DNA of 56,478 bases from an uncultured Eubacteriales bacterium (GTDB lineage Bacteria > Bacillota > Clostridia > Oscillospirales > Oscillospiraceae). Below the pieces are notes generated by a model. It did no database searches, was not told the origin of the DNA, and saw only the letters and a list, made by a program, of their open reading frames with translations. How positions within the stretch are numbered: position 1 is the first letter of the stretch; each line of letters begins with the position of its first letter. The stretch lies in assembly GCA_900317905.1 (NCBI GenBank), contig ONIN01000012.1, positions 1-56,478 of the forward strand, given 5' to 3'. Position numbers and translations under genes: made by a program. Positions 24,745 through 27,876 of the stretch are shown here, piece after piece.

Positions 24745-24773
24745 TTGACTTTTTTAAAGAAAAGGAGTAAAGT
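24745..24773 (+). promoter_or_regulatory. Promoter of the aromatic-transporter leader
   Basis: TTGACT (24745-24750), 17-base spacer, TAAAGT (24768-24773). The start near 24780 gives a 5' leader of about 190 bases before the lipoprotein gene, with the leader peptide beginning about 23 bases in. Confidence 0.75.
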
Positions 24774-24802
24774 GAACGCACATCAACAAAGGAGTTTTTT
24801 CG

Positions 24803-24850
24803 ATGGCTCACAGTCTGTTCGCACGTCGATTCTACTACTATTACTTTTGA
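24803..24850 (+). CDS. 15-residue leader peptide MAHSLFARRFYYYYF
   Basis: A short gene with a good ribosome site (AAAGGAG at 24788-24794, 8 bases before the ATG) and a TGA stop. It reads MAHSLFARRFYYYYF: four consecutive Tyr codons (TAC TAC TAT TAC) flanked by Phe codons at the end. Such a run is the hallmark of attenuator leader peptides, where shortage of the charged tRNA stalls the ribosome. The following hairpin begins inside the Tyr codons and a terminator follows. In another frame the same bases read as a Leu run, but no start or ribosome site for that frame lies within the transcript. I see no other reason for this peptide to exist. Confidence 0.75.
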   Translation: MAHSLFARRFYYYYF

Positions 24851-24929
24851 GAAAAGGTAATAGTCATTTGTGCTGACATTCTGTTCAATGAAACCTGCCC
24901 GCACAGACGACTGTGCGGCATTTTGTTTG
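24838..24929 (+). promoter_or_regulatory. Attenuator: pause hairpin and terminator before the ABC transporter
   Basis: Hairpin 1:2 is CTATTACTTTT (24838-24848, inside the Tyr/Phe codons) pairing with AAAAGGTAATAG (24852-24863), loop GAG, one bulged G. The terminator is CCGCACAG (24899-24906)/CTGTGCGG (24911-24918), loop ACGA, then CATTTTGTTTG. A candidate antiterminator pairs TTTGTGC (24867-24873) with GCACAGA (24901-24907), 6 Watson-Crick pairs and one G-U. If the ribosome stalls on Tyr codons, 24852-24863 is freed and can form a bulged stem with 24874-24880 that presents TTTGTGC in its loop. The hairpins are seen; the switching is inference. Confidence 0.65.
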
Positions 24930-24970
24930 CCATGGAAATGACCGATTTGTAAAACTTAGGAGGACAAATC

Positions 24971-25975
24971 ATGAAAAAGATCACCGCACTGGTGCTGGCC
25001 GCTCTGATGCTGTTCGCTCTGGCAGCCTGCGGAAACTCCAGCACCCCCGCCGGCAGCGCTGACGCTGTCGACGCTGTCACCCCCGCTGAGGGCGACGTGT
25101 TCACCGTTGGTGTCTGCCAGCTGGTGCAGCACCCCGCTCTGGATGCCGCCACCCAGGGCTTCGTTGATGTTCTGGAAGAGACCTTCGGCGAAGGCAACGT
25201 CGTTGTCGACGTGCAGAACGCCTCCGGCGACAGCGCCAACTGCGCCACCATCTGCAGCGGCTTCGTCTCTGAGGGCGTCGACCTGATTCTGGCCAACGCC
25301 ACCCCCGCGCTGCAGGCTGCCGCCGCCGCCACCAACACCATCCCCGTGCTGGGCACCTCCATCACCGAGTACGGCGTGGCTCTGGAGATCGCTGATTTCG
25401 ACGGCACCGTCGGCACCAACGTCTCCGGCACCTCCGACCTGGCCCCGCTGGATCAGCAGGCCGCCATGGTCACCGAGCTGTTCCCGGACGCCGAGAACGT
25501 GGGCATCCTCTACTGCTCCGGCGAGCCCAACAGCGTCTACCAGGCTGATGTCGTCAAGGCCGAGCTGGAGAAGGCCGGTCTGACCGTGAACGTCTACACC
25601 TTCGCTGACTCCAACGACGTCTCCTCCGTTGCTGCCCAGGCCTGCGACGAGAACGACGTGCTCTACATCCCCACCGATAACACCGCCGCCAACTGCGCCG
25701 AAGCCATCAACAACGTGGCCCAGCCCGCCGGCGTGCCCATCGTTGCCGGTGAGGAAGGCCTCTGCGCCGGCTGCGGCGTTGCGACCCTCTCCATCGACTA
25801 CTACGAGCTGGGCCGCACCACCGGTGAGATGGCCGTGCAGATCCTCAACGGCGAGTCCGATGTCTCCCAGATGGCCATTGAGTACTATCCCAACCCCGTC
25901 AAGAAGTACGACGCTGAGCGCTGCGCCGCTCTGAACGTCACCGTTCCCGACGACTTCACCGCCATCGAGGGATAA
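24971..25975 (+). CDS. ABC transporter substrate-binding lipoprotein, TrpX family
   Basis: 334-residue solute-binding lipoprotein of the PF04392 family (COG2984; the TrpX type). Signal peptide with lipobox L-A-A-C, C20 being lipidated. Two Rossmann-like lobes follow: T-V-G-V-C-Q-L-V-Q-H-P-A-L-D-A-A near residue 45 and NVGILYCSGEPNSVYQAD near 180. TrpX-type proteins in streptococci and other Firmicutes are associated with tryptophan transport, whereas the Tyr/Phe-rich leader upstream suggests tyrosine or phenylalanine here. GGAGGAC ribosome site 8 bases away. Codon use is strongly biased to C-ending and alanine GCT/GCC codons, as in a highly expressed gene. Confidence 0.85.
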   Translation: MKKITALVLAALMLFALAACGNSSTPAGSADAVDAVTPAEGDVFTVGVCQLVQHPALDAATQGFVDVLEETFGEGNVVVDVQNASGDSANCATICSGFVSEGVDLILANATPALQAAAAATNTIPVLGTSITEYGVALEIADFDGTVGTNVSGTSDLAPLDQQAAMVTELFPDAENVGILYCSGEPNSVYQADVVKAELEKAGLTVNVYTFADSNDVSSVAAQACDENDVLYIPTDNTAANCAEAINNVAQPAGVPIVAGEEGLCAGCGVATLSIDYYELGRTTGEMAVQILNGESDVSQMAIEYYPNPVKKYDAERCAALNVTVPDDFTAIEG

Positions 25976-25988
25976 TCCTTCCAATCCA

Positions 25989-26018
25989 GGAAAAGCCGCA
26001 CTGCGGTGCGGCTTTTCC
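25989..26018 (+). terminator. Strong hairpin between lipoprotein and permease genes
   Basis: 13-bp stem GGAAAAGCCGCAC/GTGCGGCTTTTCC with loop TGCG. The T-run is part of the stem and only TA follows, so it may be a partial terminator or a 3'-end stabiliser that lets the lipoprotein be made in excess over the permease and ATPase. Confidence 0.6.
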
Positions 26019-26102: not shown

Positions 26103-27083
26103 ATGAATCTATCACTCATGGCCGCCGGGCTGAGCTTACCGAATCTGATCGGACGGCTTCCGGGCGGCGTGGCACAGGGCATCATCTGGGGCATCATGGC
26201 GCTGGGTGTGTACATCACCTTCCGGCTGCTGGATGTGGCCGATCTGACGGTGGACGGATCCTTCACCACCGGCGGCGCCGTGACCGTCATGCTGATCCTG
26301 GCGGGCAAGCCCGCGTGGCTGGCGCTGCTGATCGCACTGATCGCGGGACTGCTGGCGGGCCTGGTCACCGGCCTGCTGCACACCAAGCTGGGCATCCCGG
26401 CGATCCTCTCCGGCATCCTGACCCAGTTTGCGCTGTACTCCATCAACCTGCGCATCATGGGCATGAGCGCCAACAAGCCGGTGAACCCGGACCGCTACAG
26501 CCTGCTGCTGACGGCCCGCACCGTGCCCATGGCCATTTTGGTGGGCGCCATTTTTGCCATTGCCATCATCGCGATCCTGTACTGGTACTTCGGCACCGAG
26601 CAGGGCTCCGCCATCCGCTCCACCGGCTCCAACCCCAATATGAGCCGGGCCCAGGGCATCAACATCAACAACATGAAGGTGCTGGGTCTGAGCCTCTCCA
26701 ACGGCCTCGTGGCCCTCTCCGGCGGTCTCATGAGCCAGTATCAGGGCTTCGCGGACATCAACATGGGCCGCGGCGCCATCGTCATCGGTCTCGCCGCCGT
26801 CATCATCGGCGAGGTGCTCTGCGATGCCTTCTTCCGCAAGGGCAGCAGCTTCTATACCCGACTGACCTTCGTGGTGCTGGGCGGCATCGCCTACTACATC
26901 GTCATGGTCATCATCCTCTGGCTGAAGCTGGACTCCAACGACCTGAAGCTGTTCACCGCCGTGCTGGTCGCCATCTTCCTGGCGGTGCCCTATCTGCAGG
27001 CCCAGCGGCGCAGCTCCTACCTGCTGGCGGGCCGCCGCAGCGCAGCCTTTTTGAAGGGAAAGGAGGCTGGGAAGGATGCTTAA
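26103..27083 (+). CDS. ABC transporter permease (TrpY-type)
   Basis: 326 residues, about nine hydrophobic segments, of the BPD_transp_2 superfamily (COG4120). The conserved segment LLDVADLTVDGSFTTGGAV early in the protein and the L-G-I-P-A-I-L-S-G-I-L-T-Q region are typical for this uncharacterised amino-acid/sugar-type permease group. It forms the membrane channel for the lipoprotein-captured substrate. The last 8 bases overlap the ATPase gene. Ribosome site GAGGA lies 10 bases from the ATG. Confidence 0.85.
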   Translation: MNLSLMAAGLSLPNLIGRLPGGVAQGIIWGIMALGVYITFRLLDVADLTVDGSFTTGGAVTVMLILAGKPAWLALLIALIAGLLAGLVTGLLHTKLGIPAILSGILTQFALYSINLRIMGMSANKPVNPDRYSLLLTARTVPMAILVGAIFAIAIIAILYWYFGTEQGSAIRSTGSNPNMSRAQGININNMKVLGLSLSNGLVALSGGLMSQYQGFADINMGRGAIVIGLAAVIIGEVLCDAFFRKGSSFYTRLTFVVLGGIAYYIVMVIILWLKLDSNDLKLFTAVLVAIFLAVPYLQAQRRSSYLLAGRRSAAFLKGKEAGKDA

Positions 27084-27876
27084 ACTGCACCAGGTCTCCA
27101 AGACCTTCAACCCCGGGACCATCAACGAAAAGAAGGCCCTGAAGAACATCGACCTCCATCTGGAGCCCGGCGATTTCGTCACCGTCATCGGCGGCAACGG
27201 CGCCGGCAAGAGCACTATGCTCAACGCGGTGGCCGGCGTCTGGCCCGTGGACAGCGGCGCCATCCTCATCGACGGCGTGAATGTCACCGGCATGCAGGAG
27301 CACCAGCGTGCTCAGTTCATCGGCCGCGTGTTCCAGGATCCCATGACCGGCACCGCGCCGAATATGCAGATCATCGAGAATCTGGCTCTGGCCGCCCGCC
27401 GCGGCAAGAAGCGCGGTCTCAGCTGGGGCGTCACCAAGGCGGAAAAAGAGGAATACGCCGAGAAGCTGAAGATCCTGGGCTTGGGTCTGGAGGATCGCCT
27501 CACTGCCAAGGTAGGCCTGCTCTCCGGCGGCCAGCGTCAGGCGCTGACCCTGCTGATGGCCTCCATGCAGCACCCGAAGCTGCTGCTTCTGGACGAGCAC
27601 ACTGCGGCGCTGGATCCCACCACCGCCGCCAAGGTGCTGGAGCTCAGCGACAAGATCATCTCCAGAGACAAGCTCACGGCCCTGATGATCACCCACAACA
27701 TGAAGGACGCCATTCGCCACGGCAACCGGCTGATCATGATGAACGAGGGCGAGATCATCCTGGACGTGAAGGGTGAGGAGAAACAGCACCTGACCAAGCA
27801 CGATCTGATGGACAAGTTCGCGGAGCTGGCAGGCACCACTCTGGACTCCGACGAGATCCTGCTTTCGAAAAATTAA
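27076..27876 (+). CDS. ABC transporter ATP-binding protein (TrpZ-type)
   Basis: 266-residue ATPase of the COG1101 group. Walker A GGNGAGKST, Q-loop VFQDPMTGTAPN (with the T-A-P longer Q-loop segment found in this group), signature LSGGQRQALTL, Walker B LLLDEHTAALDP, and switch H in MMITHNMKD. Translation is coupled to the permease by overlap, with AAAGGAGG inside the permease end. It drives uptake. It ends in a terminator that abuts spoVAD. Confidence 0.92.
   Translation: MLKLHQVSKTFNPGTINEKKALKNIDLHLEPGDFVTVIGGNGAGKSTMLNAVAGVWPVDSGAILIDGVNVTGMQEHQRAQFIGRVFQDPMTGTAPNMQIIENLALAARRGKKRGLSWGVTKAEKEEYAEKLKILGLGLEDRLTAKVGLLSGGQRQALTLLMASMQHPKLLLLDEHTAALDPTTAAKVLELSDKIISRDKLTALMITHNMKDAIRHGNRLIMMNEGEIILDVKGEEKQHLTKHDLMDKFAELAGTTLDSDEILLSKN

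Follow-up and report, generated by a model that had tools for sequence, protein, structure and literature searches.

The window analyzed here, a stretch of 56,478 nucleotides from an uncultured Eubacteriales bacterium, a gut-type member of the Clostridia, carries at positions 24745-24930 a promoter, a ribosome site, a 15-codon gene, a 12-bp hairpin and an intrinsic terminator, located 5' of the operon for a PF04392 ABC importer; all the parts of the leader and the operon described below are on the forward strand. The promoter (24745-24773) is of the sigma-70 type, with TTGACT as the -35 element (24745-24750), a 17-nt spacer and TAAAGT as the -10 element (24768-24773). It was recognized by direct reading and by its match to the consensus, and all nine subtype-A leaders compared (see below), one of which is the window's copy, show it as well. 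A ribosome-binding site read directly from the sequence, AAAGGAG (24788-24794), precedes the leader gene (24803-24850), which was identified by direct reading and through homologous leaders. This gene starts with ATG at 24803, comprises the 15 codons MAHSLFARRFYYYYF and ends with UGA at 24848-24850. Its codons 10 to 15 (24830-24847) specify Phe or Tyr; tandem codons for the amino acid that would be regulated are thus found within a short predicted leader ORF. The terminator (24899-24928), a match to the consensus, consists of a stem at 24899-24918 followed by CAUUUUGUUU, with the U-rich tail CATTTTGTTT directly 3' of the stem, and is predicted at -14.4 kcal/mol for 24897-24920. Taken alone, the promoter and terminator matches are weak evidence (one promoter versus 0.5 upon shuffling, and two terminators versus 1.4).

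The RNA from 24780 to 24945 folds at -53.2 kcal/mol (z = -4.15), a value equalled by none of 200 dinucleotide shuffles. This fold contains the 12-bp hairpin, or 1:2 hairpin (24837-24848 with 24853-24864; -11.0 kcal/mol), whose 5' arm, region 1 (24837-24848), consists mostly of Tyr/Phe codons. Its 3' arm (24853-24864) was assigned from the fold and from covariation, which is found in a core formed by 24838-24844 with 24857-24863. As judged from the fold and the covariation, the region of the predicted stall overlaps the 5' arm of this protector hairpin. Region 2, the 5' arm of a putative antiterminator (AGUCAUUUGUGC, 24862-24873), shares 3 nt with the 1:2 hairpin, and region 3, the 3' arm (GCACAGACGACU, 24901-24912), takes up most of the terminator 5' arm, the terminator loop and the first 2 nt of the terminator 3' arm; both were assigned from covariation and duplex energy. 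The two regions pair at 11 of 12 positions, with one A.C mismatch, at -12.6 kcal/mol. Direct reading and folding bear out the promoter, ribosome site, 15-codon gene ending in FYYYYF, hairpin and terminator described in the original prediction, in which the antiterminator had only 7 bp (24867-24873 with 24901-24907); the helix extends to the full 24862-24873 with 24901-24912. A loop-to-stem interaction, which had been raised as a possible route to antitermination, is therefore unnecessary, the antiterminator being an ordinary helix, and we discarded it. Terminator and antiterminator are mutually exclusive, with covariation. With region 1 masked, the forced antiterminator is near balance with the free fold that contains the terminator (-18.4 versus -19.6 kcal/mol). 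The terminator is slightly favored at equilibrium, and the switch must therefore be kinetic, with the order of synthesis deciding the outcome.

The importer operon begins with a gene for a substrate-binding lipoprotein (24971-25975; PF04392, CD0873-like by domain match and alignment), followed by genes for a permease (26103-27083; PF02653) and an ABC ATPase (27076-27876; PF00005), both assigned by domain match; spoVAD and spoVAE come next. A strong inverted repeat, GAAAAGCCGCACTGCGGTGCGGCTTTTCC, lies between the binding-protein and permease genes (25990-26018) and may raise the level of the binding protein above that of the permease. Elsewhere, the binding-protein gene was seen in two adjacent copies on one contig (G075:C19, locus L073, and G215:C13). 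The transporter had been predicted to be of the TrpX type and to import aromatic amino acids. The binding protein is, by its profile score, a relative of TrpX, but one outside the tryptophan equivalog NF041285, which it matches with 231.9 bits, under the curated cut-off of 390. Its closest solved relative is 6HNI, the CD0873 protein of Clostridioides difficile. CD0873 is described as a tyrosine-binding protein whose Glu-263 forms a bond with the hydroxyl and whose Tyr-279 stands where its Streptococcus pneumoniae relative has the glutamine that allows it to accept tryptophan (PMC6816091). Glu-261 and Tyr-277 of the window's protein align with Glu-263 and Tyr-279, the tyrosine-selecting positions, as would be expected of a CD0873-type protein. 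Tyrosine is therefore the likely cargo; the predicted import of aromatic amino acids agrees with both the closest relative and the two selectivity residues, and the importer is likely best read as a tyrosine importer. Both residues are kept in all 50 orthologues examined, 31 of which come from outside the two leader lists given below (at least one of these 31 loci, L053, does have a subtype-B core). The Glu/Tyr pair is thus family-wide and does not track the presence of a leader.

Matches to the importer at 1e-30 were found in 113 of 200 genomes of the same family and in eight of 10 in the genus. We examined 104 upstream regions, obtained from 118 by removing 14 (duplicates, short regions and signal-peptide-only matches), for an aromatic leader, defined as an ATG-started ORF that has a ribosome site and specifies four or more Phe/Tyr residues in eight codons, within 300 nt upstream. 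Such ORFs are present in 25 of the 104 regions, the window's included; shuffling of the same 104 regions gave a mean of 0.32 and a maximum of 2 over 50 rounds, and the leader is therefore not a product of chance. The leaders are of two kinds. Subtype A, the window-like kind, is made up of a Tyr run followed by GUAAUAG, a stretch resembling UUUGUGCUG and the terminator, and is found in 10 of the 104 regions (L031, which is the window's copy, L002-L005, L032, L034, L056, L096 and L089, the last by model). It had been proposed that an alignment of relatives would show a conserved Tyr/Phe run between drifting flanks, and this is the pattern obtained. In a nucleotide search with the whole leader, the nearest relatives were 93% and 91% identical, and the next matches were short pieces in G005 and G009. 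No leader was found at the importer in two of the eight genus genomes that have the importer (G001 and G006).

Subtype B is a different RNA, unrelated in sequence to subtype A, that occurs at the same importer in 21 of the 104 regions (L035, L036, L038, L039, L044, L046, L047, L050, L053, L067, L073, L075, L079, L081, L086, L087, L091, L101, L103, L113 and L114). It has an aromatic cluster and, in 16 of the 21, the codons GCG GGC inside the ORF, with which the 5' arm of the terminator can pair; the predicted duplexes range from -5.3 to -17.5 kcal/mol, without a shuffled control, and are weaker than -7 in five of the 21. The other 73 regions, those of the importers in G001 and G006 among them, were assigned to neither subtype.

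Covariation in small early alignments of subtype A was modest, the percentage of paired positions being reached by 48 of 500 shuffles (alignment A2) or 17 of 500 (A3), and we therefore enlarged the set of elements. A first covariance model was built from seven subtype-A leaders, with L034 (whose terminator had been misplaced in alignment A2) and L056 left out; the model recovered both (E of 1e-8 and 0.011, respectively). At E ≤0.01 it matched 85 places, which fall in 80 of the 400 family genomes scanned and lie before genes for DAHP synthase (68), the importer (11), chorismate mutase/prephenate dehydratase (three), a sodium symporter (one) and phenylacetate-CoA ligase (one), with one cut off at a contig end. 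All 85 places were read (30 as loci and 55 more) and, together with the weaker matches L056 and L089, gave 87 elements from which a second covariance model was built. In the order, this model found 36 places in 35 of 295 genomes (the window, four already in the set, 25 new ones that were read and six left out). It found 25 places in 24 of 391 genomes of the class (the window and 24 new ones, all read) and four places in four of 398 genomes of the phylum (the window and three new ones, all before DAHP synthase). The downstream gene codes for DAHP synthase at 25 of the 25 new loci in the order, 21 of 24 in the class and three of three in the phylum; the other class loci precede, one each, chorismate mutase/prephenate dehydratase, prephenate dehydrogenase and phenylacetate-CoA ligase.

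In total, 139 elements were read, the 87 plus 52 loci from the three wider scans: 117 before DAHP synthase, 13 before the importer, four before chorismate mutase/prephenate dehydratase, two before phenylacetate-CoA ligase, one each before prephenate dehydrogenase and the sodium symporter, and the one cut off. Most copies thus lie before DAHP synthase, the enzyme that opens aromatic amino acid synthesis; the element is widespread in Clostridia, and the importer is one of its less frequent targets. The target genes serve the same amino acid supply: a gene for Phe/Tyr synthesis, transport or use lies downstream in 137 of the 139 elements, the symporter and the cut-off element being the exceptions. 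Because the covariance model contains nothing about the downstream gene, this context is independent evidence; the aromatic codons in the matches are there partly by construction, since the models include the Tyr/Phe codon stretch. The DAHP synthase labels come mostly from BLAST to a cluster, with Pfam used for two members and the three phylum loci assigned by eye from the start of the protein. L096 (the same as L150) and L089 are on pieces too short for a gene call and count as importer loci by their origin in the importer search. Our choice of ORF favors ribosome sites and ATG, so that the frequency of these features is biased upward, and the GTG-started leader of L292 was identified by eye.

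The two leaders before phenylacetate-CoA ligase (L209 and L282) are Phe-rich, and their context suggests that the breakdown or salvage of aromatic amino acids is controlled in this way too. By eye, the DAHP synthase genes of G005 and G009 also carry a leader of the same kind (L283 and L284); the family scan did not list them, and the scans therefore miss real members. These two genomes have a leader both at the importer and at DAHP synthase, so two per genome are possible. The model scan found a single element in the window's genome, an assembly 79.6% complete in which neither an AroF-type DAHP synthase nor a chorismate synthase was found; chorismate synthase is present in the other eight genus genomes searched. 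Aromatic auxotrophy was considered as a reason why the importer is the target here; the two absences would fit it, but the assembly is incomplete and the eight other genomes do have chorismate synthase. AroF-type DAHP synthase was found in two of nine genus genomes (G005 and G009) and not in G000, G001, G002, G004, G006, G007 and G008, of which five are only 79-83% complete and six (not G000) have chorismate synthase.

In the enlarged set, both the antiterminator and the 1:2 hairpin covary; covariation in the latter was among the checks suggested with the original prediction. The alignments were fitted to the model and lean toward the structure, and the shuffles use the same alignment. Among the 87 elements, 92.6% of the antiterminator cells are paired versus 80.6% upon shuffling, double-change cells number 119 versus 32.7, and 11 of the 12 pairs have changed on both sides; none of 500 shuffles reached any of these values. 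Similarly, at 49 loci outside the training set, 92.6% of the cells are paired versus 76.0% and 72 are double-change cells versus 17.6, with 11 of 12 pairs changed on both sides, a figure equalled by one of 500 shuffles. For the core of the 1:2 hairpin, 90.6% of the cells are paired versus 85.3%, and five of seven pairs are double-changed (equalled by eight of 500 shuffles). The main change here replaces the Tyr codon UAU by the Phe codon UUU, with a matching shift from GUAAUAG to GUAAAAG.

The position of the antiterminator 5' arm relative to the leader gene bears on what is conserved, RNA or peptide. In 130 of 136 elements the stretch that holds this arm could be placed relative to the leader: 44 have it in frame 0, 22 in frame 1 and 64 in frame 2. 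The leader ORF ends ahead of the arm in 69 of the 130, continues across it in 54 and has its stop within it in seven. As the arm is read in all three frames, it is the RNA and not the peptide that is conserved there. In region 1 it is the codons that are kept, in region 2 the bases, which is what sensing by a ribosome that stalls would predict. In leaders whose ORF continues across region 2, a translating ribosome would itself block the pairing of that region.

The 136 leaders together have 613 Phe, 532 Tyr and only six Trp residues, which makes tryptophan an unlikely signal. Considering the best ten-codon stretch of each leader, Tyr is the commoner of the two in 11 of the 13 leaders at the importer, and Phe in all four prephenate dehydratase and both phenylacetate-CoA ligase leaders. 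DAHP synthase leaders are mixed (47 with more Tyr, 51 with more Phe and 16 equal; n = 114). The importer and prephenate dehydratase leaders differ in composition with a Fisher p of 0.006, in a post hoc comparison of related sequences in which two of the four dehydratase leaders are identical. The lone prephenate dehydrogenase leader has three Tyr and four Phe, and Tyr would be expected if composition tracked the product. That the Tyr:Phe composition may follow the target is a lead offered by these counts.

We consider it very probable that the leader works by ribosome-mediated transcription attenuation, sensing charged tRNA-Tyr (and perhaps tRNA-Phe), and that it controls a tyrosine importer. 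The attenuation reading had been put forward in the original prediction, and the kept Tyr/Phe run, the covarying pairings and the aromatic gene context all support it. When tyrosyl-tRNA, or possibly phenylalanyl-tRNA, is short, the ribosome would stall within codons 10 to 15 and cover region 1, so that region 2 (24862-24873) could pair with region 3 (24901-24912) ahead of the synthesis of region 4. This antiterminator would block the terminator, and the tyrosine ABC importer would be transcribed. A stall on codons 11 to 14 would be enough to leave region 2 free and give read-through. When tyrosine is plentiful, the peptide would be finished, region 1 would refold onto region 2, region 3 would pair with region 4 and transcription would end near 24928. 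A ribosome on the UGA codon presumably covers only to about 24860, by our estimate of its footprint, just short of region 2; termination under plenty would therefore need release of the ribosome and refolding of the 1:2 hairpin. The anatomy, the covarying alternative pairings, the conservation, the gene context and the tyrosine-type binding residues are all read from sequence; the stall, the direction of the response, the choice of Tyr over Phe and the site of termination are what we infer.

Other mechanisms would place the sensor elsewhere. In nascent-peptide arrest, of which TnaC is an example, the peptide in the ribosome tunnel would itself sense tyrosine. In its favor, an R-F/Y-A-G motif is kept in subtype-B leaders and Phe-Ala precedes the run in many subtype-A leaders, but the flanks of the peptide vary, and what follows the run occurs in all three reading frames; moreover, the GCG GGC codons of 16 of the 21 subtype-B leaders can pair with the terminator arm, which points to conservation at the level of the RNA. 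We regard arrest as very unlikely. Even less probable is a T-box riboswitch, in which the leader RNA would directly bind uncharged tRNA-Tyr. The trpX gene of Streptococcus suis, of the same importer family, is described as under T-box control, for tryptophan (PMC9382623), but the window had no Rfam match and its leader, of about 150 nt, has a predicted translated ORF. A search with 4227 Rfam families at the gathering threshold found nothing in the window and 70 relative loci other than two tRNAs at one locus; the 70 include 20 importer loci without a detected leader, among them L041, which has the two tRNAs. At E up to 5, the window gave only an unrelated minus-strand CbSR9. The absence of covariance-model matches speaks against a T-box or another known Rfam leader family. 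Finally, the short ORF with its promoter, ribosome site and terminator resembles a small protein gene with its own 3' terminator, unconnected to the control of the importer, but the covarying alternative pairing, the three-frame region 2 and the consistent aromatic gene context make this the least credible of the alternatives, and we dismiss it.

In the phe and trp attenuators of enterobacteria, a leader ORF with many codons for the regulated amino acid is combined with 1:2, 2:3 and 3:4 pairings and an intrinsic terminator. The attenuator proposed here shares this layout, leader ORF, pairings and terminator alike, but differs in its occurrence in Clostridia, its run of both Tyr and Phe, its DAHP synthase and importer targets, and an ORF that extends through region 2 in the 54 of 130 members noted above. 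A study of five genomes, Clostridium novyi among them, describes two uORFs in which Phe and Tyr stand out, both located upstream of genes for shikimate metabolism (Stav 2019; PMC6429828). Compared by description only, these candidates resemble ours in having a Phe/Tyr uORF at shikimate genes, and part of the DAHP synthase branch may already have been anticipated there; they differ in that an importer is a target here, whereas we found none named for theirs (PMC6429828). The uORFC-13-1 motif (Brewer 2021; PMC8632094), a uORF with Phe codons and a terminator before aroF, is likewise an aromatic-codon uORF with a terminator, but is described, with 24 representatives, only from Acholeplasma and environmental sequences, and Phe codons are the only ones named. 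A survey of 50 genomes presents eight uORF candidates, and its main text is without aroF, tyrosine or phenylalanine (PMC11109978). His leader peptides are described in Firmicutes (PMC2965389, PMC9413887); they too are a case of leader-peptide attenuation in Gram-positives where T-boxes would be expected, but theirs serve histidine-related genes. The trpXYZ operon of S. suis codes for an importer of the same family and is also controlled by transcription attenuation, but for tryptophan and by direct tRNA sensing through a T-box; the term leader peptide is absent from the text of that paper (PMC9382623). We found no report, in the literature searched, of this importer family with a leader peptide. 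Leader-peptide attenuation as such is well known, and what we describe is an RNA family that is new but of an established type, possibly anticipated in part.

More tentatively, Clostridia may have a general Phe/Tyr attenuator of their own: one old element, present across many of the families in the class, that takes at DAHP synthase the part played elsewhere by T-boxes and has been re-used at prephenate dehydratase, prephenate dehydrogenase, phenylacetate-CoA ligase, the sodium symporter and the tyrosine importer, with the Tyr:Phe mix tuned to the target. We regard this as possible rather than probable; if true, the substrate would be readable from the leader. Accounts of how Firmicutes regulate their aromatic amino acid genes usually center on T-boxes and protein regulators. 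The element, found in 80 of the 400 genomes scanned in a single family and also in other families, both of the order and of the class, offers a simple way into Phe/Tyr supply in Clostridia of the gut and rumen, and one that can be tested. It also points to tyrosine as the cargo for an importer family usually named after tryptophan, and the composition of the leader may allow substrates to be predicted from sequence.
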